Positions 27,879 through 46,440 of a stretch of DNA of 64,000 nucleotides are shown here, piece by piece. The DNA is taken from assembly GCF_947495665.1 (NCBI RefSeq), contig NZ_CANLZV010000005.1, forward strand, positions 186,001 to 250,000, in the 5' to 3' direction. Origin of the DNA: an uncultured Sunxiuqinia sp. (lineage in GTDB: Bacteria > Bacteroidota > Bacteroidia > Bacteroidales > Prolixibacteraceae). Position numbers and translations under genes: made by a program. The notes below the pieces were generated by a model. The model worked only from the letters and a program-made list of their open reading frames with translations. It ran no database searches and was not told where the DNA came from. Position 1 is the first letter of the stretch, and each line of letters opens with the position of its first letter.

Positions 27879-28690
27879 TGTTTTTTGCTGGCCTCCAGTG
27901 CTTTGTTGACCGAACCATGCAAGAGCAATAAGCGTCTGGCCTTGGCTTCGTCGTAGCCCAGCTCGTCCATGATCATGCGGGTGCCCCGTGCAATGAGTTT
28001 TTGGTTGGTCAGCTGCATGTTTACCATTTTATTTCCTTTTACACGGCCCAGTTTGATCATGAGGGTAGTGGTAATCATATTCAGAATCAGCTTTTGCGAA
28101 GTGCCTGATTTCATGCGTGTGCTACCCGTAACAAACTCTGGTCCAACAATAGCTTCAATGGGAATATCTACTTGTTTGGCCAGTTCGCTGTTGGGATTGT
28201 TGGTAACACAGCCAGTCAGCAATCCATGTTTGCGTGCTTGCTTCACCGCTCCGATGACATAAGGTGTACGGCCCGACGCAGCAATGCCAATCACCGTGTC
28301 CAGCGGGGTAACCTTGTAATTTTGAAGCTCCTGCCAGCCCAGTTCTTCATTGTCCTCAGCAGCTTCAACCGCTTTTCGAATGGCCTGGTCTCCACCGGCA
28401 ATCATTCCAATAACCAAGTCATAGCCAACGCCATAAGTTGGTGGAATTTCTGATGCATCCAGAATGCCTAAACGTCCGCTGGTGCCGGCGCCAACATAAA
28501 AAAGACGTCCTCCTTTGGTCATCCGTTCCACGGTTTGTTTCACCAGCTTCTCAATTTGAGGAATGGTTTTTTGCACGGCAGGAAGTACCTTTTGGTCTTC
28601 TTGATGAATATTATCAAGCAGTTGCCTGACATCCATTTCTTCGAGGTTGTTGTAATGCGAATCGGCTTCAGTTACACTTTCTATTGTCAT
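27875..28690 (-). CDS. murQ: N-acetylmuramic acid 6-phosphate etherase
   Basis: About 271 residues. It cleaves the lactyl ether of MurNAc-6-P, giving GlcNAc-6-P and D-lactate, the committing step of MurNAc recycling. SIS-domain features: GGRLFYVGAGTSGRLGILDASEIPPTYG, the etherase signature IGIAASGRTPYVIGAV, and EVVTGSTRMKSGTSQKL-like VTGSTRMKSGTSQK. C-terminal UBA-like tail ARRLLLLHGSVNKAL is present. An ATG at 28720 would overlap the upstream kinase; 28690 (MTIESVTEAD) follows its stop by ten bases and is preferred. Second gene of the kinase-murQ pair, the same pairing as murK-murQ of Tannerella and Clostridium. Confidence 0.95.
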   Translation of the reverse strand: MTIESVTEADSHYNNLEEMDVRQLLDNIHQEDQKVLPAVQKTIPQIEKLVKQTVERMTKGGRLFYVGAGTSGRLGILDASEIPPTYGVGYDLVIGMIAGGDQAIRKAVEAAEDNEELGWQELQNYKVTPLDTVIGIAASGRTPYVIGAVKQARKHGLLTGCVTNNPNSELAKQVDIPIEAIVGPEFVTGSTRMKSGTSQKLILNMITTTLMIKLGRVKGNKMVNMQLTNQKLIARGTRMIMDELGYDEAKARRLLLLHGSVNKALEASKKH

Positions 28691-28700
28691 CTTTTCAAGT

Positions 28701-29549
28701 TTATTCTTCGGTATGTTCATGATACTCTTTCAACTTATCGATGGGCCCCTTCAGAATGATTGGTGTCGGAAACCCATAAGCTTGAGCCAATTCATCAATG
28801 ATTGGCTTGAAGTGCCAGGCCACAGAGCCCACAAAGCCAAGTGGATAATTTCCGGCTTCGGGCAGCTGAAGGATATTGCGTTCAAAAAACTCTTTGGCGC
28901 TCGTTGTCACCAGCCTGTGGCAGTAGGGGACTGCCAGGTGCCTGGATAGGAAAGGAGCAAAGCCAGCCAGGTACTTGTTTGGCCGTTCGGTCCGATAGAC
29001 TCGTGTCAATACTTCTGCCTGATCGAGTGAAAATTCGCTTTCAAACAGTTTTTTACAATCGGTAGGCATGATGTTTTTGAAATAGTCGCCCAACAGTTTT
29101 TTTCCGAGTACCGCCCCGCTAAATTCATCTCCAAGAATGAAGCCTAGCGGAGGAATGCCGCTAACGGTTTTCTGACCATCGTACAGGCAGCTGTTGGAGC
29201 CCGTGCCCACAATGCAGGCGATTCCGGCTTCGGTGCCAAATAATGCCCGGGCTGCACCCAAAGCATCGCTGGCTGTTTCTATTGAAACATTGGGGAATAG
29301 CCGTTCAAGGGCTTTTTTGATAACATCGCCTCGTTCCTGGTTGATAATGCCTGCCCCGTAGAACTCGATTTTGTCTACACTGGTTCCGGCGGGAAGAAGC
29401 AATTTTTCGCGAAGTTCTTCATAGATATCTTCACTGGTTCTGAAGAACGGATTAATTCCTTTCGTTTGAAAGGCCAGCTCTTTGGAAACCTTACCTGTCA
29501 GCAACCAATCGGTCTTGGTTGATCCACTATCAGCAATTAATCGAATCAT
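28701..29549 (-). CDS. BadF/BadG-type amino-sugar kinase (MurNAc/GlcNAc kinase-like)
   Basis: A 282-residue ASKHA-fold kinase. Phosphate 1 motif IADSGSTKTDWLL at the N-terminus, adenosine/phosphate 2 region ACIVGTGSNSCLYDG, and GFILGDEFSGAVLGKKLLG, all typical of the BadF/BcrA family containing NagK, human GlcNAc kinase and bacterial MurK. Because it directly precedes murQ, MurNAc is the likely substrate, making MurNAc-6-P for the etherase (inference from context and from known murK-murQ pairs). GlcNAc kinase activity is an alternative. A promoter box lies only five bases before the ATG, suggesting a leaderless mRNA. Confidence 0.88.
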   Translation of the reverse strand: MIRLIADSGSTKTDWLLTGKVSKELAFQTKGINPFFRTSEDIYEELREKLLLPAGTSVDKIEFYGAGIINQERGDVIKKALERLFPNVSIETASDALGAARALFGTEAGIACIVGTGSNSCLYDGQKTVSGIPPLGFILGDEFSGAVLGKKLLGDYFKNIMPTDCKKLFESEFSLDQAEVLTRVYRTERPNKYLAGFAPFLSRHLAVPYCHRLVTTSAKEFFERNILQLPEAGNYPLGFVGSVAWHFKPIIDELAQAYGFPTPIILKGPIDKLKEYHEHTEE

Positions 29550-29707: not shown

Positions 29708-32185
29708 ATGAACTATAAGCTAATTACGTTCCTTGTATTCTTTGTGTTTTGCGGGGCTTTAAGGCTTTTGGCACAGCCTGTTATTCGTATCAATCAACTG
29801 GGCTATCTTCCCAAGGCATTTAAAACAGCTGTTTTGTTGAGCCCTGAGGAGCTTATAATCGATAAGTTTGAGTTGTATGACAAAATTTCCGGAGAAAAAG
29901 TTTATGAAGCTTCGGCTGAAATTGCAGATGCCTCGCTTTGGGGGATGCAGTCTGCCTACCGGCTTGATTTTTCAGCTTTCCAGGAGGCCGGTGGTTTCTT
30001 TATTCAGGCAGGAGCAACGCAGTCGCCCTCCTTTCACATTGGAAACGATGTTTACGATGGAACGGCCGACTTTGTGCTGAACTACATGCGTCAGCAACGT
30101 TGTGGTTTCAACCCGTTTTTAAATGACTCTTGCCACTTACACGATGGTGTTATTGTCGATCATCCGACCCGTTCCGGCGAGCAGATTGACGTGACCGGTG
30201 GCTGGCATGATGCCTCTGATTACCTGCAATATTTAACGACTTCAGCCAATGCAACCTACCAGATGCTATTTGCCTACCAGCAAAATCCGGAGGCTTTTGG
30301 CGATAAATACCAGGCCAATGGCTTAGCCGGAGCTAATGGAATACCTGATATTTTGGACGAAGCGCGCTGGGGACTGGAGTGGCTTTTGAAAATGAATCCG
30401 GCAAAAGATGAGATGTACAACCAAATTGCTGATGATCGCGATCATAGAGGGTATCGTCTGCCTAACAAGGATACAGTTAGCTATGGGCTGGGGAAAGCAC
30501 GTCCGGTGTATTTTGTTACCGGAAAACCACAAGGTCTGGGAAAACATAAAAACCGGAGTACCGGGGTGGCTTCTACGGCTGCCAAGTATGCCTCGGCGTT
30601 TGCATTGGGCGCTCAGTTGTTTGATGATATAGACCCTCAGTTGGCTGAGGTGATGCACCAAAAGGCTGAAGACGCCTGGACTTTTGCACTTTCTGATCCC
30701 GGGGTTTTTCAAACAGCCTGCATGGTTTCTCCTTATTTCTATGAAGAGGAAAATTACATCGATGATATGGAGTTGGCAGCAGCTTCGCTTTACCAATTGT
30801 CTGGTAAGGATGACTATCAGCAACAGGCGCGTTACTGGGGTGCGCTGGAACCGGTTACCCCCTGGATGGCTTTGCATCGGGCAAGGCATTACCAGTACTA
30901 CCCGTTTGTTAACTTGGGACATGCTTTGCTGGCACAATCCGCCAATGAATCCACTTCCGAGCAATTTCTGGCCCTGATGAAACAAGGACTGAGCCATTTA
31001 AAGCACTTTGCAGGCAATGATCCTTTTCAGCTTGGAATTCCTTTTCAGTGGTGTTCCAACAATTTTGTAGCCGGGGCAGCTACTCAGGCCCGGCTGTACC
31101 GTCAGCTAAGCGGTGATGAGACTTTCGCAACGCTTGAAGCGGCCCTGGTTGACTGGCTTTTAGGCTGTAATCCCTGGGGAACAAGTATGATCTGCGGACT
31201 TCCTGAGGGAGGTGAATACCCGGAAAAACCGCATTCTTCCATCACGGTTCTGATGCATGAAACCACCACTGGCGGGCTGGTGGATGGACCGGTTTACCGA
31301 TCGATTTACGAAAGTCTGCGTGGGATTCTGCTTTTGGAACCGGATGAATATGCCGATTTCCAGAACGGGAAAGCCGTTTATCATGATGATATTGGCGATT
31401 ACTCATCGAATGAACCGACCATGGATGGCACGGCGAGCTTGAGCTTTTTATTTTCCTCGCTGGAAGTTGAGGGGCAAAAAGACCAAAACATGAGCCGAGT
31501 GGTAAAAGACAGTCAGGGGGCACTGGTGCGGATGGATACCACGAGCCGGAAGGTTTACCTGATCTTTTCAGCACATGACTACAACGATGGCGGCGAGCTG
31601 ATTGCTAAAACCTTGAAGAAACACAACCAGAAGGCTTCCTTCTTCTTTACCGGAGACTTTTATGAAAATCAGGATAACCAGAAATTAATTGCCCGGTTGA
31701 TGAAGGATGGCCATTATCTGGGGGCCCATTCAGATAAGCATTTGCTTTACGCTGACTGGGAGAAACGCGACTCACTGCTGGTAACGCGCGAAGTGTTTGA
31801 AAAGGATCTGGTAGCCAACTATCATAAAATGGCCGAGCTGGGCATTGATCCATCCGAAGCACCTTACTTTTTGGCGCCTTACGAATGGTACAATGAAGCC
31901 ATTGTCAACTGGAGTAAGCAGCTGGGTTTGCAAGTGGTTAATTTTACAACGGGGATACGCACCAACGCAGATTATACAACCCCTGACATGAAAAACTACC
32001 GATCATCAGAAAGGATTCTAAATGGCCTGAAAAGCTTTGAAAACGATCAACCGGCCGGACTTAATGGGGCTGTTATTTTGATTCATCTGGGAACAGCTGC
32101 TGAACGAACCGATAAGTTTTATCATCATCTGGATGAACTTTTGGATTTCCTGACCAATAAAGGCTACCAGCCAAGCCGTTTGTGA
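29708..32185 (+). CDS. GH9 glycoside hydrolase fused to a NodB-like polysaccharide deacetylase
   Basis: An 825-residue secreted protein (signal peptide to about 22). Residues 23-105 form a CelD-type N-terminal Ig domain (IRINQLGYLPKAFKTAVL). Residues about 115-585 are a GH9 barrel: the Asp nucleophile/base region TGGWHDASDYLQY (about 165) and the acid Glu in SSNEPTMDGTASL (about 566). Residues about 610-825 resemble a CE4 deacetylase: VYLIFSAHDYNDGGEL, then the metal histidines HSDKH (about 671) and APYEWY, LIHLG. The usual TFDDG motif is altered. GH9 includes cellulases and exo-glucosaminidases. With an attached deacetylase and murQ next door, an amino-sugar glycan is the likelier substrate (inference). 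First gene of the operon. Confidence 0.85.
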   Translation: MNYKLITFLVFFVFCGALRLLAQPVIRINQLGYLPKAFKTAVLLSPEELIIDKFELYDKISGEKVYEASAEIADASLWGMQSAYRLDFSAFQEAGGFFIQAGATQSPSFHIGNDVYDGTADFVLNYMRQQRCGFNPFLNDSCHLHDGVIVDHPTRSGEQIDVTGGWHDASDYLQYLTTSANATYQMLFAYQQNPEAFGDKYQANGLAGANGIPDILDEARWGLEWLLKMNPAKDEMYNQIADDRDHRGYRLPNKDTVSYGLGKARPVYFVTGKPQGLGKHKNRSTGVASTAAKYASAFALGAQLFDDIDPQLAEVMHQKAEDAWTFALSDPGVFQTACMVSPYFYEEENYIDDMELAAASLYQLSGKDDYQQQARYWGALEPVTPWMALHRARHYQYYPFVNLGHALLAQSANESTSEQFLALMKQGLSHLKHFAGNDPFQLGIPFQWCSNNFVAGAATQARLYRQLSGDETFATLEAALVDWLLGCNPWGTSMICGLPEGGEYPEKPHSSITVLMHETTTGGLVDGPVYRSIYESLRGILLLEPDEYADFQNGKAVYHDDIGDYSSNEPTMDGTASLSFLFSSLEVEGQKDQNMSRVVKDSQGALVRMDTTSRKVYLIFSAHDYNDGGELIAKTLKKHNQKASFFFTGDFYENQDNQKLIARLMKDGHYLGAHSDKHLLYADWEKRDSLLVTREVFEKDLVANYHKMAELGIDPSEAPYFLAPYEWYNEAIVNWSKQLGLQVVNFTTGIRTNADYTTPDMKNYRSSERILNGLKSFENDQPAGLNGAVILIHLGTAAERTDKFYHHLDELLDFLTNKGYQPSRL

Positions 32186-32226
32186 TGAGGATGTAGGGTT
32201 GAAATTTTTTATGCTGAATTTATACT

Positions 32227-33696
32227 ATGACTAATTCGCTGATTCTGACTGTTATTCTTTTGTTTTTTGGCTTGTTGATGGTGATTTCTTACCTGACCTC
32301 AAGAAATGCCAGCAACGATACTTTTTTTACGGGAAATCGCCGGTCTCCGTGGTACTTGGTGGCCTTTGGCATGATTGGTTCTACCATTTCGGGGGTGACT
32401 TTTATTTCGGTGCCGGGCGAGGTGGGCAACACGGGCTGGACGTATTTGCAGTTTTTGCTAGGCAACTTTGTCGGTTACTGGATCATTGCATTGGTTTTAA
32501 TTCCTCTGTATTACAAGCTTCGGCTCGTTTCCATCTATACTTATCTCGATCAGCGTTTTGGCCTTCGTTCATACAAAACAGGAGCTTTCTTTTTCCTGCT
32601 TTCTCAAACCATTGGAGCCTCTTTTCGGCTTTACCTGGCGGCTGGTGTGCTTCAACTGGCTTTTTTCGATGCGCTGGGTATTCCTTTCTGGTTGACGGTT
32701 TTGCTCACCCTGCTATTAATCTGGATTTATACGCACCGGGCCGGAATTAAGACGGTTGTGTGGACTGACTCCCTGCAGACACTTTTTATTCTAGGGGCGG
32801 TAGGGATGACCATTTGGGTTATTTCGGAACAACTGGATCTGAGTGCCGGGGGTTTGGTGGAAACAGTGGCCAATCATCCGTACAGCCGGATCTTCGATTG
32901 GGATTGGCAGTCGAAAACCAACTTTTTCAAGCAATTTCTGGCTGGTTTGGGGATCGTGATCACGATCAATGGATTGGATCAGAATATGATGCAGAAAAAC
33001 CTGACCTGCAAAACGCAGCAGGATGCTCAGAAGAATATTTATTGGTTTAGCCTGGCTTTTATCATTGCCAACCTGCTTTTTCTGTGCCTCGGTGTAATGC
33101 TCTATTTTTTCGTGCAGCAAAAAGGGCTGGCTATACCCGAGCGTAGCGATGACCTTTTTCCGATGTTGGCGATGCAATATTTTGGGCCATTGGCCGGAGC
33201 ACTGTTTTTGCTTGGTATTCTGGCTGCAGCCTACTCTAGTGCCGACTCCGCCCTGACGGCGCTGACAACTTCGTTTTGCATTGATTTTCTAAATATTGAT
33301 GCTGAGGCGAATAATAGCAAAGCCACTCGTTTTAAGGTGCACATTGCCTTTTCATTGCTGGTTTTCCTGGTTATAGTCCTCTTCCGTATCATTAACGACG
33401 AAAGTGTGGTGACTGCTGTGTTTCGGGTGGCTGGGTACACCTATGGTCCCTTGCTGGGTTTGTTTACTTTCGGAATTCTGACCAAACGACAGGTGAAGGA
33501 TCGCTATGTTCCTATTGTAGGCTTGCTGTCGCCTGTGTTATCTTTGGTGATTGACCGCAATTCGGAAAGCTGGCTGGGTGGCTACCAATTTGGATTTGAA
33601 CTTTTGCTGCTGAATGGCTTACTTACGTTTATTGGCTTACTCTTGTTGACAAAAAAACATACAAATGAAAACAACGCAACGCTACCTCGCACTTGA
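32227..33696 (+). CDS. Sodium:solute symporter family (SSS) transporter
   Basis: A 489-residue inner-membrane transporter with about 13-14 membrane helices. SSS features: N-terminal helix, RRSPWYLVAFGMIGSTISGVTFISVPG (the Na-site region of TM2), YTYLDQRFGLRSYKTGAF, and later AAAYSSADSALTALTTSFCID, the TM8/TM9 region that binds sodium in this family. Substrates are usually sugars, sialic acids or amino acids. Within this locus MurNAc, GlcNAc or a small muropeptide is plausible; a dedicated MurNAc transporter occurs in the murTKQ locus of Tannerella. It overlaps the next gene by 32 bases. Confidence 0.9.
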   Translation: MTNSLILTVILLFFGLLMVISYLTSRNASNDTFFTGNRRSPWYLVAFGMIGSTISGVTFISVPGEVGNTGWTYLQFLLGNFVGYWIIALVLIPLYYKLRLVSIYTYLDQRFGLRSYKTGAFFFLLSQTIGASFRLYLAAGVLQLAFFDALGIPFWLTVLLTLLLIWIYTHRAGIKTVVWTDSLQTLFILGAVGMTIWVISEQLDLSAGGLVETVANHPYSRIFDWDWQSKTNFFKQFLAGLGIVITINGLDQNMMQKNLTCKTQQDAQKNIYWFSLAFIIANLLFLCLGVMLYFFVQQKGLAIPERSDDLFPMLAMQYFGPLAGALFLLGILAAAYSSADSALTALTTSFCIDFLNIDAEANNSKATRFKVHIAFSLLVFLVIVLFRIINDESVVTAVFRVAGYTYGPLLGLFTFGILTKRQVKDRYVPIVGLLSPVLSLVIDRNSESWLGGYQFGFELLLLNGLLTFIGLLLLTKKHTNENNATLPRT

Positions 33697-34774
33697 TGTG
33701 CTCCGCGGCATTACGATTGCTGCGATGATAACCGTGAATACTCCCGGCAGCTGGTCGCATATCTATGCTCCTTTGCGCCATGCAGCCTGGCATGGATGTA
33801 CGCCCACCGATTTGGTCTTTCCATTTTTTCTGTTTGTGGTTGGGGTATCCATGTTTTTCTCTTTTTCAAAATACGGCAATCAGCTGAACAGGGAGTCGCT
33901 GGTGCGCCTGAGTCGGCGAACGGTGTTGATCTTTGCCATCGGCTTGTTTCTGAATTCTTTTCCGCAGTGGAGTAAGGATTTTTCTCAGTTGCGGATTATG
34001 GGCGTGCTGCAGCGGATTGCACTGGTTTATGGGTTCGCCTCCTTGATTGTCTTATCGGTTCAAAAGAAGTATCTGCCATACATAGGTGGAGGTATTTTGT
34101 TGGTTTATTGGGGAATAATATATTTTATGGGAACGGGTGACCCATACAGCCTGGAGAGCAATGCCACCATCCCGTTTGACCGAATGATTCTGGGTGAGCA
34201 ACACCTGTACCGGGGCTTTGGTATTCCTTTCGATCCGGAGGGTTTGTTGAGTACATTGCCGGCTATTGTAACGGCAATACTGGGTTACTTGGCCGGTTCG
34301 CTAATCAAGCAGCATGAGAAACTGCAAGTACCCAAACAATTGGTGCTTTGGGGCATTGCAGGGGTGATCGGCGGATTGGTCTGGGGACAGTTTTTCCCAA
34401 TCAACAAGGCCCTTTGGACAAGCTCGTATGTGCTTTATACGGGAGGGCTGGCCAGTATTTTCCTGGGTGTGTTGGTCTGGATTATCGACTTGAAGCATTA
34501 TCAGAAGTGGACCTCCTTTTTTGTGGTATTCGGCATGAACCCCTTGTTTATCTTCGCGCTGTCTGGCTTGTGGGCCATTACCATCAGCCGGATTATTCGT
34601 TGGGAAGGCCGGAATGGCGAAATGCAAAATGCTTACAGCTGGCTTTACCAAGAGGTTTTTGTACCATTGGCCGGTCCTTTGAACGGGTCGCTCCTGTTTG
34701 CCCTTACCCACATTGTTTTCTTCTGGTTTATAGGCTATGTGCTTTACAAGAAGAAAATATTCATCAAGGTTTAA
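33665..34774 (+). CDS. NagX/DUF5009 membrane protein (HGSNAT-like acyltransferase family)
   Basis: A 369-residue membrane protein with about ten helices. The N-terminus RYLALDVLRGITIAAMITVNTPGSW and the segment HAAWHGCTPTDLVFPFFLFVVGVSM are the signature of the family of human heparan-alpha-glucosaminide N-acetyltransferase, and of NagX found in bacterial GlcNAc gene clusters. The histidine in HAAWHG corresponds to the active-site His of HGSNAT (family knowledge). It could transacetylate terminal glucosamine across the membrane, which would complement the deacetylase domain upstream (inference), or assist amino-sugar uptake. Its start lies inside the symporter gene. Confidence 0.87.
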   Translation: MKTTQRYLALDVLRGITIAAMITVNTPGSWSHIYAPLRHAAWHGCTPTDLVFPFFLFVVGVSMFFSFSKYGNQLNRESLVRLSRRTVLIFAIGLFLNSFPQWSKDFSQLRIMGVLQRIALVYGFASLIVLSVQKKYLPYIGGGILLVYWGIIYFMGTGDPYSLESNATIPFDRMILGEQHLYRGFGIPFDPEGLLSTLPAIVTAILGYLAGSLIKQHEKLQVPKQLVLWGIAGVIGGLVWGQFFPINKALWTSSYVLYTGGLASIFLGVLVWIIDLKHYQKWTSFFVVFGMNPLFIFALSGLWAITISRIIRWEGRNGEMQNAYSWLYQEVFVPLAGPLNGSLLFALTHIVFFWFIGYVLYKKKIFIKV

Positions 34775-34808
34775 TGATTAAATTGCGGAAACCAAAACAG
34801 CTTTCGGT

Positions 34809-37799
34809 ATGAAACGGATTCTCTTTTTTAGCTTGCTTTTCATTCTTCTTGCGGCAAAAACGCAGGCTCAGTTTGTGATGAATGTCTTGCTGCAGGACCA
34901 TTGGGTTGATTCTGTGTTTCAATCGCTGACACCCGAACAGCGCATCGGACAGCTGGTTTGGATTAACACGGCAGCCAATGCAGACCTGGAGAAACAATTT
35001 GAAGTTGCAGAACTGATTGAAAAATATAACCTCGGCGGAGCTATTTTTTTCACCGGCGACCCGGTTAAGCAAGCTCGTTTAACCAACTTGTACCAATCGG
35101 TTGCTCAAACGCCTCTGATGATTGCCATGGATGCAGAGTGGGGGGTAGGAATGCGGCTTCCAGGAGTTATTGCTTTCCCATACAATATGATGTTGGGGGC
35201 ATCGGATGATCCTGAATTGATAAGGGAAGTCGGGAAAGAGATGGCCCGGCAGATGAAACGGCTGGGTGTGCAAATGAGCTTCGGGCCTGTTGCCGACAGC
35301 AACACGCAGCCGTTGAATCCGATTATTGGGATGCGTTCTTTTGGTGAATCTCCGCAACGTGTGGCCGACTTCAGTTTGGCGTATATGCAGGGCTTGCAGG
35401 AGAATGGTATTTTGGCAGTAGCCAAGCATTTCCCTGGGCATGGCGACACCCAAACTGACTCGCACTACAGCCTTCCGCTGGTTCCTTATTCACGTGAACG
35501 ACTCGACTCTGTTGAGCTATTTCCTTTTCGTCGGTTGGCCGATGCAGGGATTGCAGGCGTGATGACGGCTCACCTGAATGTTCCGCAACTGGCGTTGAAG
35601 GGAATTCCTTCAAGCTTGTCTGCCCGCATTATTCAAGGAGTTTTGCGTGATGAATGGCAATACGATGGCTTAGTTGTTACTGATGCCATGAACATGGCCG
35701 GGGCAAATACCTATGGTGCGCCGGGCGAGATAGAAGCACTGGCACTAAAAGCAGGCAATGATGTGGTGGAGTTTCCGAAAGACATCGAGCAGGCGATAGC
35801 AGGCATTAAACGGGCAATTGAGCAGGGGAATCTTAGTTGGGACGAAGTGAACAGCAAATGCCGGCGTGTTTTGGCAGCTAAGCGTTGGGCCGGACTTGAT
35901 CAACTGGAGCCGGTTGATCCGCATGGTTTGCTTGAGGACCTGAATGCCCCGCAAACCGAATTGGTAAAGCGGAAAGTGATTGAGTCGTCGCTTACTTTGC
36001 TTGAAAACAGCCAGGAGCTGATTCCGCTGATGCGGCTCGATACCCTTCGCATAGCCTGCCTGACGGTAGGAAGTACCCCGGTGACGCCTTTCCTGAAGAT
36101 GTTGGCGAAATACACGGAGATCCACGATTTTTTTCTTCCGGAGAATTTTTCAAAAGAGGAGCTGGAAGCCGTAAAGGAGCAGTTGCAGGACTTTAATCTG
36201 GTGGTGGCAGGCCTTCACTTGTATGAAAGTAAAACAAGGCGTTCGATGCAGGTGGGCAACATGCAGCGCACCAGACCGGAACGTCCCTATGGATTAAGCG
36301 GGCAGACAGAAGCTTTGCTGAACTACCTGGCCAATGATAAAAAGTCCATTGAGGTATTTTTCTCCAGTCCTTATGCTTTGGCTGAAGTGAAGAACTTTCA
36401 GGCACCCGAAGGCCTGATTATGGCTTATCAGAATGATTCACTGGTGCAGGAGCTCGCGGCTCAGTTAATTTTTGGCGGCATTAGCTCGTCCGGGAAGTTG
36501 CCGGTCAGCCTGGGAGACTATTACGCGGCAGGCGATGGTTTGACCATTCTTGAACCGATTCGTCTGAAGTATACCATTCCGGAGGAAGTGGGTTTTAACA
36601 GCAGCCGGCTGAATAGGCGCATTGATTCTTTGGTGAGAGAAGCCATCGTCAAGAAGGCCACTCCGGGCTGCAGCGTGTTGGCTGCCAAGGACGGGAAAGT
36701 AATTTTCAATAAAACCTATGGGTACCACACCTATGAACAACTGGTGCCTGTGCGGGAAAATGACCTGTATGATTTGGCTTCGGTGACCAAAATTACCGGC
36801 GCGCTGGCCGCTGTCTTGAAAATGACCGATGATGGACTGATTGATTTGGATGAGCCGTTCTCAAAGGCCTGGCCCGACTGGCAAAAACGTTTGTTCCATC
36901 GTTCCAATAAAGAAGCACTGAGTTGGCGGGAAATTCTGGCGCATCAGGCAGGATTGATACCCTACCTGAACTTTTGGACTGAAACCGTGGACGATGGCAG
37001 CTTGAAACCGCGTTGGTATTCCTTTCAGAAGCAGAAGGATTATACTCTGGAGGTGGCTCCGGGCTTGTTTCTGAATGAAAAGTTTACAAAGAAAATGTAT
37101 CGCACCATTCGGAAGTCCAGCCTGAATGAGCCAGGCAAGTATGTGTATAGCGGACTTTCGTTTTTGGTCATACCAAAATTGACTCAGCGGCTAACCGGCC
37201 AGAATTACGTCGATTTTCTGGATCAAAACTATTATCAGCGTCTGGGGGCTGGCCGCTTGACCTACAACCCGCTTGAAAAGTTTTCAGTAAACGAAATTGT
37301 GCCTGCAGAATACGATCAGTACTACCGCAAACGTCAGATACACGGCACGGTGCATGATGAAGCAGCGGCTGTGCTGGGTGGCGTATCCGGAAATGCCGGT
37401 TTGTTTGGCACGGCCAACGACCTGGCCAAGCTGATGCAGATGTATTTGCAGATGGGCACATACGGCGGATACCAATATCTGCAGTCTCAAACAATGCAGG
37501 AGTTTACCCGTGTGCAATTTCCGGAAAATGACAACCGACGGGGGCTGGGCTTTGATAAGCCCTTACTCAACAACCGGGAGTTAACGCCCGATGCCGCTTA
37601 TCCTTGTATCGGAGCCAGCCCTGCAAGCTTTGGACACTCTGGGTTTACCGGCACTTTTGTTTGGGCCGACCCCGAAAGTCAACTGGTTTATATCTTTTTG
37701 AGCAACAGGGTTTACCCCAGCCGCGAAGGCAATTTATTAGGTCGAATGAATGTTCGAACAGGCCTCCTTCAGATTTTTTACGATGAACTTGCTCAATAA
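34809..37799 (+). CDS. NagZ-type GH3 beta-N-acetylglucosaminidase fused to a class C serine hydrolase
   Basis: A 996-residue secreted protein (signal peptide ending TQAQ, about residue 22). Residues about 25-365 are a GH3 barrel with the NagZ signature KHFPGHGDTQTDSHYSLP (about 205-222, catalytic Asp-His dyad) and the nucleophile Asp in VVTDAMNMAGA (about 293). Residues about 370-590 are a GH3 C-terminal alpha/beta domain. Residues about 610-996 are a beta-lactamase/esterase-like domain: SVTK (SxxK, about 657), a YSG motif (KYVYSGLSF) and HSGFTG (about 942). Likely action: removal of GlcNAc from GlcNAc-MurNAc fragments, with the second domain cutting a peptide, amide or ester bond (inference). 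Confidence 0.9.
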   Translation: MKRILFFSLLFILLAAKTQAQFVMNVLLQDHWVDSVFQSLTPEQRIGQLVWINTAANADLEKQFEVAELIEKYNLGGAIFFTGDPVKQARLTNLYQSVAQTPLMIAMDAEWGVGMRLPGVIAFPYNMMLGASDDPELIREVGKEMARQMKRLGVQMSFGPVADSNTQPLNPIIGMRSFGESPQRVADFSLAYMQGLQENGILAVAKHFPGHGDTQTDSHYSLPLVPYSRERLDSVELFPFRRLADAGIAGVMTAHLNVPQLALKGIPSSLSARIIQGVLRDEWQYDGLVVTDAMNMAGANTYGAPGEIEALALKAGNDVVEFPKDIEQAIAGIKRAIEQGNLSWDEVNSKCRRVLAAKRWAGLDQLEPVDPHGLLEDLNAPQTELVKRKVIESSLTLLENSQELIPLMRLDTLRIACLTVGSTPVTPFLKMLAKYTEIHDFFLPENFSKEELEAVKEQLQDFNLVVAGLHLYESKTRRSMQVGNMQRTRPERPYGLSGQTEALLNYLANDKKSIEVFFSSPYALAEVKNFQAPEGLIMAYQNDSLVQELAAQLIFGGISSSGKLPVSLGDYYAAGDGLTILEPIRLKYTIPEEVGFNSSRLNRRIDSLVREAIVKKATPGCSVLAAKDGKVIFNKTYGYHTYEQLVPVRENDLYDLASVTKITGALAAVLKMTDDGLIDLDEPFSKAWPDWQKRLFHRSNKEALSWREILAHQAGLIPYLNFWTETVDDGSLKPRWYSFQKQKDYTLEVAPGLFLNEKFTKKMYRTIRKSSLNEPGKYVYSGLSFLVIPKLTQRLTGQNYVDFLDQNYYQRLGAGRLTYNPLEKFSVNEIVPAEYDQYYRKRQIHGTVHDEAAAVLGGVSGNAGLFGTANDLAKLMQMYLQMGTYGGYQYLQSQTMQEFTRVQFPENDNRRGLGFDKPLLNNRELTPDAAYPCIGASPASFGHSGFTGTFVWADPESQLVYIFLSNRVYPSREGNLLGRMNVRTGLLQIFYDELAQ

Positions 37800-38005: not shown

Positions 38006-41000
38006 ATGAAAAAAAGCTTATTACTTATCTTTCTTCTGTGTTTGGTGATACAGCTCACCCAGGCACAAACCCGGTCGATTAGTGGAGAAGTCCGCAGCAA
38101 ATCGACCAACGAACCTCTTCCCGGCGTATCGTTGGTGGTAAAAGGAACCACCCAGGGTACGGTGACTGACGTTGATGGTCGGTATAGCCTTTCTGTGCAG
38201 CAAGGTGCAGTTCTTCAAGTTAGCTTTATTGGAATGCAACCGCAGGAAGTTACGGTTGGCAATGCTTCAACGATCAATATTGAATTAGAAGCTTCAGTTG
38301 AGGATTTGACTGAAGTTGTGGTAGTGGGCTATGGCACACAAAAGAAAGCGAACCTTACCGGTGCTGTTGCTTCGGTGGATACCAAGGTGTTGGAAGCAAG
38401 ACCCATTGCCGATGTCGGGCGTGGATTGCAGGGATCGACTCCTGGGTTGAACGTGGTTGTTCCCAGTGGAGAGGTTGGTTCTGACCCGATTTTGAAAATT
38501 CGTGGACAACTTGGTTCTTTAGAAGGAGGTTCATCCCCTTTGATTTTGCTGGATAACGTAGAAATTCCTTCCATTCAATTGGTTAATCCTGATGATATTG
38601 AATCGATTTCTATTTTGAAAGATGCCGCTTCAGCTTCAATTTACGGATCAAAAGGGGCTTTTGGAGTTATTCTTATTAACACCAAAAAGGGAGCCAAAAC
38701 GGAAAGCGTTAATGTTTCATATTCCGGCAACCTGTCCTTCCAGAATATTTCGAAGAAAATAGAAATGGCCGGAGTTGATGCTTTGGAGTACTCGGTGCTG
38801 GCCATGGAGCGTGTTGGTGCCACTTCAATAGGAGCTTTCTGGAAAGTAACCAGAGATAGTTATGAAAAGGCCAAAGCTTGGGAAGAAACGTGGGGAGATC
38901 AAGTAGGAACAGGTGATCCGATGCTATATGGACGCGATTGGTATGTTGATGCGGATAACCGCAAATTGGGACTTCGTACCTATGATCCGTACGACTACAT
39001 GATTAAGGAGTGGACACCTACGCAGCAACATAACTTGTCGGTGAGTGGTAAATCAGGAGCTACGGATTACAACATTGGTTTTGGTTACCTGGATCAAACA
39101 GGTATGCTGAAGCCAGCCAAAGAGGATGATTTTAAACGTTACAATGGCTCGGTGCGTGTTGGTACGCAAGTGAATAGCTTTCTGAAGGTCCATGGAGGAA
39201 CAATCTTTTCCAAGCGGGTTAAGCGTTATCCGTTTGCCACAGCTTCAACAACTGCTGACCCTTGGTTGTATCTTTACCGTTGGAGCCCAATCTATCCGCT
39301 CTCTACGGAAGACGGAGATCCCATCCGGAGCCCGGTTTCAGAAGTGCAACAGGCCAATACGGCTTTCCAGGAAACCAATTATACCAGCTTAAACGGAGGT
39401 TTTGTTTTAACTCCGCTTGAAGATTGGAATATCAATTTCGATTACACACATGCCAATGAGGAATACATCAACAAAAATCCGGGAACACGCTATACGGCCC
39501 GCAACAGCTGGTCGGCAGGAATTCCTAAGTATGATGAAAGCGGAAACCGGATTTATGTGAATGATGCCGGGCAACCCGTTTCTTCAACTGCTCCGGGAGC
39601 TATGGCCGCCTACGAATTGAATATGATGACCTATACAGGTGTGGGCTCAAACCCTGACCGGGTTTACCGCTATGCCCGAAACCGGAAATGGAATACCATC
39701 AATTTAAGTACCACTTATGATTTGGATATTAATGAGATCCATGCCTTCAACTTCATGTTGGGTTTGAACCGTGTGGGCTATGAATTGGGGTCAAACTACT
39801 CGCAACGCCTGGAACTGGTGGATTATGAGAATCCGCAGTTTGATTTGGCAACCGGGACACAAACGGCAGGCGGAAGTGAATATTGGGAGTCTCAACTCGG
39901 ATTTTTCGGGCGTGTAAACTATAATTTCAAGGAAAAATATTTGTTTGAAGCTAACCTTCGCTACGACGGAACTTCCAAATTTCCTTCTTACCTGCAATGG
40001 CAGTGGTTCCCTTCATTTTCTGCCGGATGGCGTGTAAGTGAAGAACCTTGGATGGAGGCCCTGCAGCCAGCGCTTAGCTCGTTGAAATTTAGGGGATCCT
40101 GGGGATCAATCGGTGACCAGTCGGTCAGCAACTCCTTGTACATTCCAACGATGAGTGGCGGTTACAACAGTTGGGTAATTAGTGGCGCACGGCTTTATGA
40201 ATTCGGCACCCCAACATCGGTGTCTTCTTCCATTACCTGGCAGGATATTACAACACTCGACCTGGGCTTCGATGCTCGTTTTGTTGACAATAAACTTGGC
40301 CTTACCTTCGACTGGTATCGTCGCGATACGGAAAACATGATTGTGCCTCAGGAAGGTTTGCCGGTAACTTACGGAACCAGTGCTCCTAAAGGCAATTTTG
40401 GTTCACTCCGAACCAATGGTTTCGAAGTCCAGCTGGATTACAACCACCGGTTTAAAAATGGCCTGGGCATTAACGTAGTTGCAACTCTGGCCGATGCCAA
40501 AACGAAAATTACCAAGTATGGATCAACTACCAGTATCAACTCTTGGTATGTTGGAAAAACCTACGGCGAAATTTGGGGCTACGAGACCGACCGGCTGTAC
40601 CAGAAAGATGACTTTGTGTATGATAGCAACGGAGACCTGGTCACTACGGTAACAGAAGATGGTTATACGATTAATCAGCTGTCGGACTCAGAAGCGGCAA
40701 CGCAAGGCTATATCCAATCGGGTAACTTCCGGTTTGGCCCTGGCGATGTGAAATTTAAAGACCTGAATGGTGATGGTGAAATTAATGCAGGAAATCGCTT
40801 AACAGATGATCACGGAGATCTGAAAGTGATTGGAAACAGCACTCCTCGCTACGAATATGGTTTGCGCTTGGGCGCTGACTATAAAGGATTCGACTTGTCT
40901 GTATTTATTCAGGGAGTAGGCAAACGCGATGTATGGGGAAGTGGCTTCCTGGCTATCCCCGGATTTCAAGCCTCTGACGGTGCTATGCCGCAGGCCATTG

Positions 41001-41377
41001 CCGGCGATTTCTGGAGAGAAGACCGGACCGATGCGTTCTACCCGGCTCCCTATAACCTGGCTGGGAGCAGCACTTCTTTAAACATGGTTCCGCAAAGCCG
41101 CTACTTGCTTGACATGTCTTACCTAAGGGTGAAAAATATTACGGTTGGTTACAGCCTTCCGGAGAACCTGGTGAGCAAAATGTATCTGAAAAGCCTGCGC
41201 GTTTATGTGGCGCTGGAAAACTTCTTCACCAAGGATAACTTGCGTGATCTGCCGATTGATCCGGAAGAAATTGCCGGTTATTCCATGTGGAACAGTTCGA
41301 ACTACAATTTGGGCCGTACCGGAGTGGGTACGCCTACCTTTAAAAGTGCGTCGGTTGGCGTTCAGTTGAACTTCTAA
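38006..41377 (+). CDS. SusC-like TonB-dependent outer-membrane transporter
   Basis: A 1123-residue outer-membrane receptor. Order: signal peptide (IQLTQAQ), a carboxypeptidase-D regulatory-like domain (SGEVRSKSTNEPLPGVSLVVKG, about 25-100), the SusC hallmark VVVGYGTQKKANLTGAV at the start of the plug (about 106-122), plug motif ISILKDAASASIYGSKGAFGVI, then a 22-strand barrel ending VGVQLNF. It imports oligosaccharide or peptide-sized ligands with TonB energy and pairs with the SusD protein 12 bases downstream. There is no STN domain and no adjacent anti-sigma/ECF pair, so regulation is probably by the FadR-type or another one-component regulator. The ligand is inferred to be a peptidoglycan fragment. 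Confidence 0.95.
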   Translation: MKKSLLLIFLLCLVIQLTQAQTRSISGEVRSKSTNEPLPGVSLVVKGTTQGTVTDVDGRYSLSVQQGAVLQVSFIGMQPQEVTVGNASTINIELEASVEDLTEVVVVGYGTQKKANLTGAVASVDTKVLEARPIADVGRGLQGSTPGLNVVVPSGEVGSDPILKIRGQLGSLEGGSSPLILLDNVEIPSIQLVNPDDIESISILKDAASASIYGSKGAFGVILINTKKGAKTESVNVSYSGNLSFQNISKKIEMAGVDALEYSVLAMERVGATSIGAFWKVTRDSYEKAKAWEETWGDQVGTGDPMLYGRDWYVDADNRKLGLRTYDPYDYMIKEWTPTQQHNLSVSGKSGATDYNIGFGYLDQTGMLKPAKEDDFKRYNGSVRVGTQVNSFLKVHGGTIFSKRVKRYPFATASTTADPWLYLYRWSPIYPLSTEDGDPIRSPVSEVQQANTAFQETNYTSLNGGFVLTPLEDWNINFDYTHANEEYINKNPGTRYTARNSWSAGIPKYDESGNRIYVNDAGQPVSSTAPGAMAAYELNMMTYTGVGSNPDRVYRYARNRKWNTINLSTTYDLDINEIHAFNFMLGLNRVGYELGSNYSQRLELVDYENPQFDLATGTQTAGGSEYWESQLGFFGRVNYNFKEKYLFEANLRYDGTSKFPSYLQWQWFPSFSAGWRVSEEPWMEALQPALSSLKFRGSWGSIGDQSVSNSLYIPTMSGGYNSWVISGARLYEFGTPTSVSSSITWQDITTLDLGFDARFVDNKLGLTFDWYRRDTENMIVPQEGLPVTYGTSAPKGNFGSLRTNGFEVQLDYNHRFKNGLGINVVATLADAKTKITKYGSTTSINSWYVGKTYGEIWGYETDRLYQKDDFVYDSNGDLVTTVTEDGYTINQLSDSEAATQGYIQSGNFRFGPGDVKFKDLNGDGEINAGNRLTDDHGDLKVIGNSTPRYEYGLRLGADYKGFDLSVFIQGVGKRDVWGSGFLAIPGFQASDGAMPQAIAGDFWREDRTDAFYPAPYNLAGSSTSLNMVPQSRYLLDMSYLRVKNITVGYSLPENLVSKMYLKSLRVYVALENFFTKDNLRDLPIDPEEIAGYSMWNSSNYNLGRTGVGTPTFKSASVGVQLNF

Positions 41378-41389
41378 AACGAAACAGTT

Positions 41390-43228
41390 ATGAAAAAACA
41401 GATATTACTTATTTTACCCTTGGTTATACTTGTGCTGGGAGCCTGTGATGATTTCCTGGATAGGTCTTCCTTAACCGAGATGAACGATGATACCTACTGG
41501 ACAACAGAGAACAACCTCCGATTATTCTCCAATGGCTTTTACTCCAACTATTTTGTGGGGTACAACTCGGGATGGGGAAGTGCCTATGCGCCATTACGTG
41601 GTTACTATTTTTCAGATGATTTCTCATCCACCGGCAAGCTGGGGAGCTTTGAAACTCAGGCGCCTTCTTCCCGGGCTGATGATGACGAGGTAGTATCGAT
41701 GATGAATAGCTACGCCGGGCCTACCTGGAACTTTGCCTGGGTGCGCAAAGCCAATATATTCATGGAGCGCATTGCAGCGATGCAGGAAGCCGGAGTTGAG
41801 CTGAGCGAAGAAACTTTCCAGCACTGGACGGCTGTGGCCCGTTTCTTCCGGGGATTTGAATACAGCCGCCTGGTGAGCGTGTTTGGCGATGTGCCGTACT
41901 ATGGCGAAGTGATTGATGATTCGAACCTGGACGCACTTTATAAGGACCGGGACGACCGGACCTTTGTGATGGATCAGGTGTATGATGATTTTGTGTATGT
42001 GATGGAGAATATGCGTACTTCGGACGGTAATGCACAATACCTGAACCGTTACATTGCGGCGAGTTTCATTTCGCGCCTGATGTTGTTTGAAGGAACCTGG
42101 CAGAAATACCACCTGAACAATACGGAAAAAGCAAGCAAATACCTGGAACTGGCTGCTGATGCTGCCGACTTTGTCATGTCTTCCGGTATGTATTCTTTTA
42201 CAAGCGATTTCCGTTCTTTGTTTGGGTCTCAGGATTTGGCCGGGAATAAAGAAGTGATCCTGTTCCGGCATTACGATGCTTCAATTGGGATTACTCACCA
42301 TGTTGCATCCTATTCCAACCTAACAGAAGGACAGTATAATGCGCCTAACCTTTCTTTGGCCAAAGCATTTATCTGTACCGATGGCAAGCCGTATCAGTTG
42401 TCGGCAGTTCCCAATGCCGATGAGCTCAGCATTCAAAATCTGGCAGCCACTCGAGATCCCCGTTTTGAAGCTACTTTTTGGGATGCGCCAAAAAAAGAGT
42501 CGAGCACCTTGCTGTATGCTTGCAAGTTTATTGATCGGGTAGGGGTTACTTATTATGGATCAACTTATCCTTCGATGTATGGATCAAACACCAACACCAA
42601 TGATGCGCCGGTGATGCGTTTGGGTGAAGTGGTTTTAAACTGGATTGAAGCCAAGGCAGAGCTTGCAACCATGGGAGGAGCAGCGGTTACTCAAGCCGAC
42701 TTGGATGTGTCGATTAATGCAATTCGCAGTCGTCCATTGGACGCAGTAGCCATTGAGAAGGGCATTCAGCAAACTGTTCCGTTACTTCTGGCCGAGTTGC
42801 CTGATGACCCGGCAAGAGATGCTGATGTGTCAGCACTGATTTGGGAAATTCGCCGCGAACGCCGCATGGAGTTTGTCTATGAGCATTCGCGCCTGCTGGA
42901 TATTAAGCGCTGGAATAAGATCGACTATATGAGTGGTGCCGATAATCCGGATATTCTTCGTGGACCTTGGATTGATTTTGAAACCGATTTCCCTGAGTGG
43001 CTGGTTGAAGAAAAAGAAGGTGTTCTGCGTGTTGAAACAGCTGATGGAACTGTTGTAACCTACAATGGCTCCAACGCGGCCGAGATTGTTGGCTACTATG
43101 TTCCTGAGAATGTTTCAGACCGCGATCCTTTTACTGACCGGGTTTACCTGGCTCCTGTGGGCAATGCCCAGATCAGTGAGTATATGGATAAAGGATACAC
43201 CCTGAGTCAAACTCCGGGTTGGGAATAA
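41390..43228 (+). CDS. SusD/RagB family substrate-binding lipoprotein
   Basis: A 612-residue surface lipoprotein (signal peptide, lipobox LGAC, Cys at about 19, followed by DDFLDR as typical of SusD). The TPR-like helical N-terminus (AWVRKANIFMERIAAM ... HWTAVARFFRGFEYSRLVSVFGDVPYYGEV) and the C-terminal RRERRMEFVYEHSRLLDIKRW motif place it firmly in the family. It forms the lid of the SusC transporter and binds the glycan or glycopeptide. A 16-base-pair terminator directly follows. Confidence 0.95.
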   Translation: MKKQILLILPLVILVLGACDDFLDRSSLTEMNDDTYWTTENNLRLFSNGFYSNYFVGYNSGWGSAYAPLRGYYFSDDFSSTGKLGSFETQAPSSRADDDEVVSMMNSYAGPTWNFAWVRKANIFMERIAAMQEAGVELSEETFQHWTAVARFFRGFEYSRLVSVFGDVPYYGEVIDDSNLDALYKDRDDRTFVMDQVYDDFVYVMENMRTSDGNAQYLNRYIAASFISRLMLFEGTWQKYHLNNTEKASKYLELAADAADFVMSSGMYSFTSDFRSLFGSQDLAGNKEVILFRHYDASIGITHHVASYSNLTEGQYNAPNLSLAKAFICTDGKPYQLSAVPNADELSIQNLAATRDPRFEATFWDAPKKESSTLLYACKFIDRVGVTYYGSTYPSMYGSNTNTNDAPVMRLGEVVLNWIEAKAELATMGGAAVTQADLDVSINAIRSRPLDAVAIEKGIQQTVPLLLAELPDDPARDADVSALIWEIRRERRMEFVYEHSRLLDIKRWNKIDYMSGADNPDILRGPWIDFETDFPEWLVEEKEGVLRVETADGTVVTYNGSNAAEIVGYYVPENVSDRDPFTDRVYLAPVGNAQISEYMDKGYTLSQTPGWE

Positions 43229-43245: not shown

Positions 43246-43286
43246 GAAAGACTCACTGGATTTTTCATCCGGTGGGTCTTTCTTTT
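43246..43286 (+). terminator. Rho-independent terminator after susD
   Basis: GAAAGACTCACTGGAT / ATCCGGTGGGTCTTTC pair over 16 positions with two G-T pairs and a five-base loop, followed by TTTTG. It would end or attenuate susCD transcription before the phosphoesterase gene. Confidence 0.82.
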
Positions 43287-43302
43287 GATAAAGCCAATTG
43301 AA

Positions 43303-45147
43303 ATGATGAAGCGAATTTATTTTCTGTTGCTGCTCTGTCTGACTACGGTTTTTAGCTGGGCGCAAGCACTGCATTTTGCGCATATTACGGATACGCATAT
43401 TGGAGGAACCAACGCTGCAGAAGACCTGGAACGAACAGTGGACGACATTAACCGGCAGGATAGCCTTGATTTTGTGATTCTATCCGGTGATATTACCGAG
43501 TTTGGATCTGATGACGAACTGGAGCTGGCTAAGCGTATTTTGGATAAGCTGACTAAACCCTGGTACATCGTGCCGGGCAATCACGACTCGAAATGGTCGG
43601 AAAGTGGGAACAACAGCTTTGTGGAGGTGTTTGGCTGCGAAGAGTTTGCTTTTGAACAAGGAGGATATTTGTTTATCGGTACAGCCAGTGGCCCAAACAT
43701 GCGCATGGCACCCGGTTTGGTGCCGCGCGAGCAAGTGGTGTTTCTGGATTCAGTTTTGACGAATATGGCCAGGCCGGATCAGCCCATTATTTCGATTAAT
43801 CATTACCCACTCAACGAATCGCTTTCCAATTGGCATATTTTAATCGATAAATTCAAAACCCACAATATTCAGGCAACACTTTTGGGGCACGGGCATCAGA
43901 ATAAATTGTACAATTTTGAAGGAATTCCGGGAGTGATGAGCCGCTCGAATTTGCGCGCCAAAAGCGATACCGGCGGCTATAATATCGCAACCATTGCGCG
44001 CGATACCCTGTTTTATGCCGAACGTACGCCGGGAGGCAAAACGCATCCAGTATGGTGTCGGGTGCCTCTTCAAAATCATCATTTCAGTCAAGATACGACT
44101 TCTTACCCGCGGCCGGATTATACGTCTAATCAGCAATTCTCAAGGGTGAAAAGCCGTTGGGAAATTCAGGATGACAGCGACATAGGGACGGGGCTTAGCC
44201 GATCAGAGAATTATGCCGTGTATGGCACAACATCCGGTAAAATTGTAGCGCGTGACATTCGAAACGGGAAGCTTATCTGGAGCTTTTCTACCGGAGGTAA
44301 GGTATATTCGACTCCAGCCATTGCACAAAACCGGGTTGTGTGTGCTTCCACCGACCAGAAGATTTACTGTTTAAACCTGAAAACGGGGAAACAGGAATGG
44401 GTATTTCCTACGGGCAAAGGAATTGTGGCCTCTCCGGCCATTGACGGTAAGGCTGTTTTTATTGGCTCTTCCGAAGGAGTTTTTCGGTCGATCGATCTGA
44501 TGACAGGTGAACTGAACTGGCAGTTTGACCAAGTGAGAAACTTTGTGGAGTGCCGTCCGCTGGTTGATCAAAACCGGGTTTATTTTGGCTCCTGGGGTAA
44601 CACTTTCTATGCCTTGGATGCCCTGACTGGGAAGCTGATCTGGAAGCGGGAGAAATACACTAATCGCATGTTATCGCCGGCGGCTGTATGGCCTGTTGCA
44701 GCCAACAATAAAATCTTTATTGTGGCTCCCGACCGCCGCATGACTGCCCTGAATGCCGAAACAGGTGAGGAAATCTGGGACTCGGGCGAATACAGTTGTC
44801 GCGAGTCTATTGGGATTTCGGAGGATGGCCAGTGGGTATACATCAAAAACATGTACGAAGGCAATGTGAATGCTTTTTATACGGCTGCTGATACCCAGGA
44901 GCTGGCTTGGGAATGCCAGGCAGATTTGGGCTACGAAATAGCCCCTTCACCTATCACGGAGGATGGAAATGTGGTGTTTGTGCCTACTACGGAAGGAGTG
45001 GTTTGCGCCATCGATAAAACGAGCCACCAGGTGCTTTGGAAGTACAAAGTGTCGCATGCCTTGATTAACCATGTGCTGCCTGTGGGAAAAAACCGGGTAT
45101 TGGTTTCGGTGCTTGACGGCAAGGTCGCTTGTTTAGAATACGATTAG
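43303..45147 (+). CDS. Secreted calcineurin-like phosphoesterase fused to a PQQ-type beta-propeller
   Basis: About 614 residues with a signal peptide (LLLLCLTTVFSWAQ). Residues about 20-260 are a metallophosphoesterase: HITDTHIGG (DxH), VILSGDITE (GD), VPGNHDS (GNHD) and GHGHQNK (GHxH), so the dinuclear metal site is complete. Residues about 285-614 form a propeller of PQQ-like repeats, each with a Gly-Lys-x-x-Trp pattern (NGKLIWSF, TGKQEWVF, TGELNWQF, TGKLIWKR, TGEEIWD). The cofactor is not implied; such propellers often bind partners. A TTG start at 43285 is possible but the ATG at 43303 fits the signal peptide better. Substrate is unknown: a phosphodiester or phosphomonoester outside the membrane. 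Confidence 0.88.
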   Translation: MMKRIYFLLLLCLTTVFSWAQALHFAHITDTHIGGTNAAEDLERTVDDINRQDSLDFVILSGDITEFGSDDELELAKRILDKLTKPWYIVPGNHDSKWSESGNNSFVEVFGCEEFAFEQGGYLFIGTASGPNMRMAPGLVPREQVVFLDSVLTNMARPDQPIISINHYPLNESLSNWHILIDKFKTHNIQATLLGHGHQNKLYNFEGIPGVMSRSNLRAKSDTGGYNIATIARDTLFYAERTPGGKTHPVWCRVPLQNHHFSQDTTSYPRPDYTSNQQFSRVKSRWEIQDDSDIGTGLSRSENYAVYGTTSGKIVARDIRNGKLIWSFSTGGKVYSTPAIAQNRVVCASTDQKIYCLNLKTGKQEWVFPTGKGIVASPAIDGKAVFIGSSEGVFRSIDLMTGELNWQFDQVRNFVECRPLVDQNRVYFGSWGNTFYALDALTGKLIWKREKYTNRMLSPAAVWPVAANNKIFIVAPDRRMTALNAETGEEIWDSGEYSCRESIGISEDGQWVYIKNMYEGNVNAFYTAADTQELAWECQADLGYEIAPSPITEDGNVVFVPTTEGVVCAIDKTSHQVLWKYKVSHALINHVLPVGKNRVLVSVLDGKVACLEYD

Positions 45148-46434: not shown

Positions 46435-46440
46435 ACGATT

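Follow-up and report, generated by a model that had tools for sequence, protein, structure and literature searches.

What does a bacterium do with an exported protein in which a NagZ-type glycosidase of family GH3 is joined to a serine hydrolase of family S12, and do the two halves work on the same substrate? Such a protein is encoded at positions 34809-37799 on the forward strand of a 64,000-nucleotide stretch of DNA (hereafter the window) from an uncultured Sunxiuqinia sp. (contig NZ_CANLZV010000005.1). A preliminary description made from the letters of the window had read it as an exported NagZ-type GH3 fused to a class C serine hydrolase, the latter possibly an amidase, a D-Ala-D-Ala peptidase or an esterase. 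Here, we analyze the fusion, its homologs and its gene neighborhood, and propose, with a probability of roughly 0.6, that it is an exported, probably periplasmic, bifunctional NagZ-amidase predicted to take both N-acetylglucosamine (GlcNAc) and the stem peptide off muropeptides, leaving N-acetylmuramic acid (MurNAc).

The 996-residue protein, which starts at an ATG, consists of a leader, a two-domain NagZ-type GH3 and a YfeW/AmiE-like S12 hydrolase. Residues 1-21 (MKRILFFSLLFILLAAKTQAQ; 34809-34871; all features of the fusion lie on the forward strand) form a hydrophobic stretch that we read by eye as a probable Sec leader without a lipobox cysteine. We aligned the protein with 48 of 75 listed relatives from related loci (alignment A1), and 46 of these 49 proteins are strongly hydrophobic over a stretch close to the N-terminus, with start codons chosen by script. 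An AlphaFold2 model built from the 49 aligned proteins reached a mean pLDDT of 90.7 and a pTM of 0.90. Because the same layout recurs in 101 distinct open reading frames (ORFs; drawn from 106, window included, with a phmmer score >400 bits and a length >850 aa), the GH3-S12 arrangement is not due to chance. Conservation counts below refer to this set, in which, as judged from the residues, both active sites are intact.

The GH3 half opens with a TIM-barrel N-terminal domain (residues 43-356; 34935-35876; Pfam PF00933, E 2.6e-75, 254.2 bits against a cut-off of 27), followed by a middle GH3 C-terminal-like domain whose approximate bounds, about residues 381-590 (35949-36578), come from phmmer and Foldseek comparison with Bacillus subtilis NagZ. 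The NagZ signature KHFPGHGxTxxDSH noticed earlier is found at residues 206-219 (KHFPGHGDTQTDSH; 35424-35465) with its Asp217-His219 dyad, and K206, H207, D217, S218 and H219 are kept in 101/101 fusions. Equally invariant (101/101) are R176, D108 and Asp292 (VVTDAMNM; 35682-35684), the last being the predicted GH3 nucleophile by homology with B. subtilis NagZ. A sequence search of the PDB returned a Paenibacillus GH3 GlcNAc-ase first (6k5j, E 2.9e-66) and B. subtilis NagZ next; the phmmer alignment to the latter (3bmx) spans residues 39-570 and hence both GH3 domains, and the top Foldseek matches, over ~630 columns, were B. subtilis NagZ chains, led by the GlcNAc-MurNAc complex 4gyj. Among seven GH3 ORFs checked in the genome, the NagZ-type motif is confined to two, both of them fusions. 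Leader, Pfam domain, sequence and fold thus bear out an exported NagZ-type GH3, and the step assigned to this half, removal of GlcNAc from the muropeptide, is well supported. Export itself had been presented as unusual, a view that is not supported: B. subtilis NagZ works outside the cell (PMC5061867), and RmNag3, a fusion from Rhodothermus marinus, has a predicted signal peptide (PMC6987092).

The hydrolase domain occupies residues 606-973 (36624-37727; S12/PF00144, Beta-lactamase, E 1.9e-42). Its SxxK motif is S658-V-T-K661 (36780-36791) and its tyrosine motif Y780-S781 (37146-37151; YSG in the window), with S658, K661 and Y780 present in 101/101 fusions, so that by its residues the SxxK domain does not look catalytically dead. 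The third motif, H943-S-G-F-T-G948 (37635-37652), lies at the place of the beta-lactamase KTG, and H943, G945, T947 and G948 are kept in 100/101 fusions, with one gap. The label 'class C' is right for the fold but goes no further. Against the class C beta-lactamase model NF033085 the protein scored 30.2 bits (cut-off 415), and YSG and HSG replace YxN and KTG; the S12 half is not a class C beta-lactamase.

Among the references compared, the nearest named relative of the S12 half is Escherichia coli YfeW (PBP4B), at 30.1% identity over 372 columns. As a yardstick we took the 47 hydrolase positions with at least 97% conservation among the fusions: 35 of them are retained in YfeW, 30 in a NamZ-joined domain of Burkholderia savannae, 20 in AmpH and 18 in AmpC, and scores from the family hidden Markov model fall in the same order (214, 150, 48 and 36 bits). 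Fusions and YfeW have in common the marks DLASxTK, VHD (V848-H849-D850 in the window; 37350-37358) and GHxGxTGT, and the SxxK, Tyr and H-x-G motifs are present. The PBP4B model also has a match within B. subtilis.

Since YfeW, the nearest relative, belongs to a murQ operon (gene order murQ-murP-yfeW in E. coli), and since AmiE is encoded beside NagZ in the B. subtilis murQRP cluster, we favor cleavage of the MurNAc-L-Ala bond as the activity of the S12 half, an assignment we consider somewhat better than even. The three activities first proposed are thereby narrowed to a favored amidase, with a DD-peptidase still in contention, and a muropeptide as the common substrate of both halves is supported as likely. 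The GH3 half would use the Asp217-His219 acid/base dyad and the Asp292 nucleophile to remove the non-reducing GlcNAc from GlcNAc-MurNAc(-peptide), and the S12 half, through Ser658, Lys661 and Tyr780, would act like B. subtilis AmiE and cleave the MurNAc-L-Ala amide. A single chain would then do the work of two separate B. subtilis enzymes and yield GlcNAc, MurNAc and free stem peptide. Fragments would enter via SusC/SusD, MurNAc would be taken up by a sodium:solute symporter and handed to a kinase and then to MurQ, and the stem peptide would be trimmed by an NlpC/P60 peptidase and an epimerase. The domains, active sites, kinship and gene context are read from the DNA; we infer the amidase activity, the action of both halves on one substrate, the periplasmic location and the transport route.

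The genes around the fusion make up the cast of this scheme. Upstream, behind a GntR/FCD regulator (27117-27878, forward strand; Pfam), MurQ, the MurNAc-6-P etherase (27875-28720), and a BadF/BcrAD-type kinase (28701-29549) lie on the opposite strand. MurQ scored 306.8 bits against the TIGR00274 cut-off of 302 and is the only copy above cut-off in the genome; the kinase, a MurK candidate, matched PF01869 with 19.5 bits, under the Pfam cut-off of 31.5. The forward strand then carries a fusion of GH9 and polysaccharide deacetylase (29708-32185; Pfam), an SSF sodium:solute symporter (32227-33696; PF00474), which is a MurT candidate, and, overlapping the symporter gene, a NagX-like transmembrane acetyltransferase (33665-34774; NF046061, 152.8 bits, under the cut-off of 480) that ends 35 bp before the start of the GH3-S12 gene. 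Kinase and symporter belong to the families of Tannerella forsythia MurK (BadF-type) and MurT (sodium symporter superfamily), respectively (PMC5790795). SusC (38006-41377; TIGR04056, 784.5 bits against 368.25) and SusD (41390-43228; PF07980, 83 bits against 23.1) follow 207 bp after the fusion, then a calcineurin-like phosphoesterase with a PQQ beta-propeller (43285-45147) and an SH3 plus NlpC/P60 peptidase of the muropeptide endopeptidase type (45262-46434), and an enolase-superfamily enzyme (46441-47586; PF13378, PF02746), a candidate L-Ala-D/L-Glu epimerase by context, all on the forward strand. With adjacent SusC and SusD genes (38006-43228) and same-strand enzymes at 29708-37799 and 45262-47586, the region has the makeup of a polysaccharide utilization locus (PUL). 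For control, we scanned nine other GH3/S12 loci of the same genome (19.9 kb each) for relatives of peptidoglycan genes, and 0/9 had a relative of MurQ, the kinase, SSF, NagX, NamZ, AnmK, Amidase_3, NlpC or the epimerase; a distant SusC occurred in 3/9.

Beside the fusion, the nearness of the GH9-deacetylase to the NagX-like gene suggests a branch of GlcNAc deacetylation, glucosamine (GlcN) release and re-acetylation. PDB matches of the GH9-deacetylase include 5dgq, a GH9 structure that is presumably an exo-glucosaminidase. We tentatively view 27117-47586 as a dedicated peptidoglycan-utilization locus with import of muropeptides by SusC/SusD, a duplicated and specialized fusion that would take them apart in the periplasm, and a parallel deacetylase-GH9-NagX branch for GlcN and its re-acetylation, a view to which we give slightly less than even odds.

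To place this locus among its relatives, we split 80 related loci into two sets by identity and neighbors. Set A (the PUL clade; 17 loci, 57-72% identity) contains NagX in 17, SusC in 11, the GH9-deacetylase and NamZ in 10 each, the phosphoesterase in 9, SSF in 6, MurQ and the kinase in 5 each, AnmK, NlpC and the epimerase in 4 each, and Amidase_3 in 3, counts that are lower bounds because contig ends cut some stretches. One Maribellus locus (L028) combines MurQ, kinase, GH9-deacetylase, a transglutaminase-like protein, SSF, AnmK, NagX, the fusion, SusC, SusD, NamZ, Amidase_3 and phosphoesterase. The transglutaminase-like protein occurs in 7/17 set-A loci (L028, 4419-5870; L042, 15322-16809) and was not seen in the window locus. 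Set B (the core clade; 63 loci, 39-47% identity) has NamZ and NagX in 0/63 loci and MurQ in 5/63, directly upstream of the fusion in four of them (L046, L047, L049 and L075). In a separate group of 13 core-clade loci of relatives (L015-L027, 1.5 kb flanks), NamZ adjoins the fusion in 10/13 and SSF in 4/13. We considered position 782 as a possible marker for the PUL clade but abandoned it: the G of the window recurs in members of both clades, 25 rows in all, against 73 rows with D, 2 with C and 1 with E.

The genome of the window itself holds a second fusion, on contig C7, with 46% identity to the window copy. It stands head-to-head with a NamZ gene ~110 bp away, the only NamZ in the 4.7 Mb genome, and has an SSF symporter gene behind it. 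In a tree of the C-terminal parts, the window copy falls together with copies from set A, within the branch of the Bacteroidales (5 rows, support 100/99). The simplest reading is a duplication in which one copy was recruited to a SusC/SusD locus. By the counts of marker genes per locus, set A and the core copies in the family of the window have a strong peptidoglycan context, which most other copies lack.

Several observations weigh against a NagZ-amidase of this kind. The GH3 half does not reach the NCBIfam NagZ equivalog PRK05337, a single-domain model of 340 positions (160.6 bits against a cut-off of 207), and because of this miss we call it NagZ-type and two-domain, not an equivalog. The S12 half likewise falls short of the PBP4B/YfeW equivalog NF002968 (141.8 bits against 385), and so is by the cut-off rule a PBP4B relative and not an ortholog. 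In the tree of S12 halves, computed with 30 of 41 thinned fusion rows and with one reference of degenerate SxxK (own_L113) excluded, YfeW joins the fusions with moderate support (89/74) and under a long-branch warning. Kinship to AmiE is indirect. AnmK has no match in the window's genome, so that an anhydro-MurNAc branch is not supported there. In 54/63 core-clade loci, the stretch examined holds none of MurQ, AnmK, NamZ, NagX, Amidase_3 or the epimerase, and the available part of the RmNag3 report names no cell-wall gene among the neighbors of that fusion (PMC6987092).

A further such point is that the available part of the literature describes YfeW/PBP4B as a DD-carboxypeptidase (PMC4916385) and a low-affinity penicillin-binding protein, not an amidase. 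For that reason a DD-peptidase stays a candidate and is the main rival: the S12 half would be a DD-carboxypeptidase or endopeptidase that trims D-Ala while the GH3 half removes GlcNAc, and the intact SxxK, Tyr and HxG motifs speak for it. Such an enzyme, however, would not free MurNAc, and the locus encodes a MurNAc-6-P etherase with a candidate MurNAc symporter and kinase. The B. subtilis pair, moreover, is NagZ plus an amidase (PMC5061867), and PBP4b is counted among the enzymes that contribute less, or nothing, to the trimming of pentapeptides by E. coli at acidic pH (PMC4916385). We regard a DD-peptidase as unlikely, although it is the alternative to be taken most seriously.

Less probable still is an esterase of the family VIII type that would remove O-acetyl or other esters from muropeptides or chitin-like sugars. 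Its appeal lies in the fold: Foldseek and VIA-align rank family VIII esterases, EstG and a macrolactin acyltransferase closest, and AmpC types slightly lower (Z 30.5-36.5); the fold matches listed include no structure of AmiE or YfeW. But one S12 fold is common to amidases, peptidases and esterases, so the fold comparison does not separate them, and the sequence sides with YfeW (38.9 bits for the LipL model against 141.8 for PBP4B). Use of the fusion on chitin, with the GH3 half as a chitobiase and the adjoining GH9-deacetylase and NagX relative handling GlcN, would agree with the action of RmNag3 on chitobiose and chitopentaose (PMC6987092) but is very improbable, as MurQ, NlpC/P60, the epimerase-like enzyme and the NamZ, AnmK and Amidase_3 of orthologous loci have no known role in chitin use and the scan of the locus genes showed no chitinase.

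Bacteroidota commonly encode exported GH3-S12 fusions; in the literature consulted, RmNag3 is the only one with a reported assay. A protein search at E<=1e-60 gave a match in 59/61 near relatives and in 126/148 genomes across the phylum, figures that are not fusion counts because they include proteins with a match to one side alone, be it GH3 or S12. Some genomes appear to hold the halves apart. In five genomes of the phylum-wide survey, labeled f26 (G062, G140, G159, G182 and G198), NagZ-side and S12-side matches lie at separate places (11 match rows, 2 of them with one internal stop codon in the matched stretch), and no full-length fusion is among their match rows; this looks like a real separation, with the leader-bearing S12 protein of G182 being the one that was read. 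Exported proteins with the S12 part only do exist (L137 and L138). Separately, S12 proteins too short for a GH3 barrel lie at 6899-8827 of L035, 10417-12474 of L056 and 6586-8442 of L137. Judging by a match that begins at residue 394, the L137 protein seems to have kept part of the middle GH3 C-terminal-like domain with its hydrolase. An apparent split operon in genome G151 (L135, 4431-7348), with the GH3 and S12 parts as neighboring genes, was rejected: the second part lacks a leader, the reading frame differs between the parts, and they are separated by a run of T, all of which makes a single fusion gene interrupted by a frameshift, or a mistake in the assembly, more likely.

Once the S12 half is tied to the YfeW/AmiE branch and to genes of MurNAc catabolism, it has a direct and testable role, that of a MurNAc-L-Ala amidase; the link may also help to explain the function of YfeW (PBP4B) in the murQ operon of E. 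coli. If the locus is indeed dedicated to peptidoglycan, the bacterium would eat the cell wall of other bacteria as food and not only recycle its own, and the SusC/SusD locus would illustrate how certain Bacteroidota use peptidoglycan as a nutrient.

How does the fusion compare with known systems? The GH3-S12 architecture is already known, as it was listed in 2008 and a member was assayed in 2020. The 2008 listing gives Bacteroides thetaiotaomicron NP_811352.1 and Salinibacter ruber YP_444518.1, with the same domain pairing as the window protein; in the part available it is a listing of domain architecture only, under carbohydrate hydrolysis, beside an S12-DUF1343 pairing (PMC2605481). The protein assayed in 2020, RmNag3, has GH3 domains 1 and 2 and a C-terminal beta-lactamase-type domain, and hydrolyzes pNP-GlcNAc (the p-nitrophenyl glycoside), chitobiose and chitopentaose as a beta-N-acetylglucosaminidase; its authors had themselves pointed out that it resembles B. 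subtilis NagZ combined with AmiE, and the accessible text reports on the GH3 half, with no test of the hydrolase half found in it (PMC6987092). The window protein has the same three-part layout of leader, two-domain GH3 and C-terminal S12, a comparison made at the level of domain layout. No cell-wall surroundings are reported for the RmNag3 gene; the window fusion shares its locus with MurQ, a MurK-like kinase, a symporter and SusC/SusD.

In B. subtilis, the cluster murQ-murR-murP-amiE-nagZ-ybbC places the amidase gene next to nagZ, and NagZ and AmiE act in sequence on released muropeptides (PMC5061867). NagZ (YbbD) is there likewise two-domain and exported, with the AmiE (YbbE) gene beside it, but the two are separate proteins and uptake is by the phosphotransferase system (MurP), whereas the window has one chain and an SSF symporter as its candidate. 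The ybbC gene was later named NamZ; the Pfam NamZ_N model matches in B. subtilis. E. coli YfeW, in turn, stands alone and has YSD for the YSG of the window. On the B. savannae plasmid pMSMB0266, a fusion likewise joins a YfeW-like hydrolase to an exo-acting peptidoglycan glycosidase; its partner, however, is NamZ (DUF1343), a muramidase, with the hydrolase on the N-terminal side, where the partner in the window is GH3. That S12-NamZ gene (L121, 4827-7217) has genes for a polysaccharide deacetylase and for a putative glycoside hydrolase as neighbors. The murT-murK-murQ operon of T. forsythia provides a symporter, a BadF-type kinase and MurQ for MurNAc use, as in the window, but in the description available it has no fusion enzyme and no SusC/SusD named in it. 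Among the papers listed in searches of the open-access PMC literature, we found no SusC/SusD peptidoglycan locus with this fusion and enzyme set and no assay of the S12 half. What is new here is therefore not the fusion as such but a second, family-specific copy of it in a candidate peptidoglycan-utilization locus.

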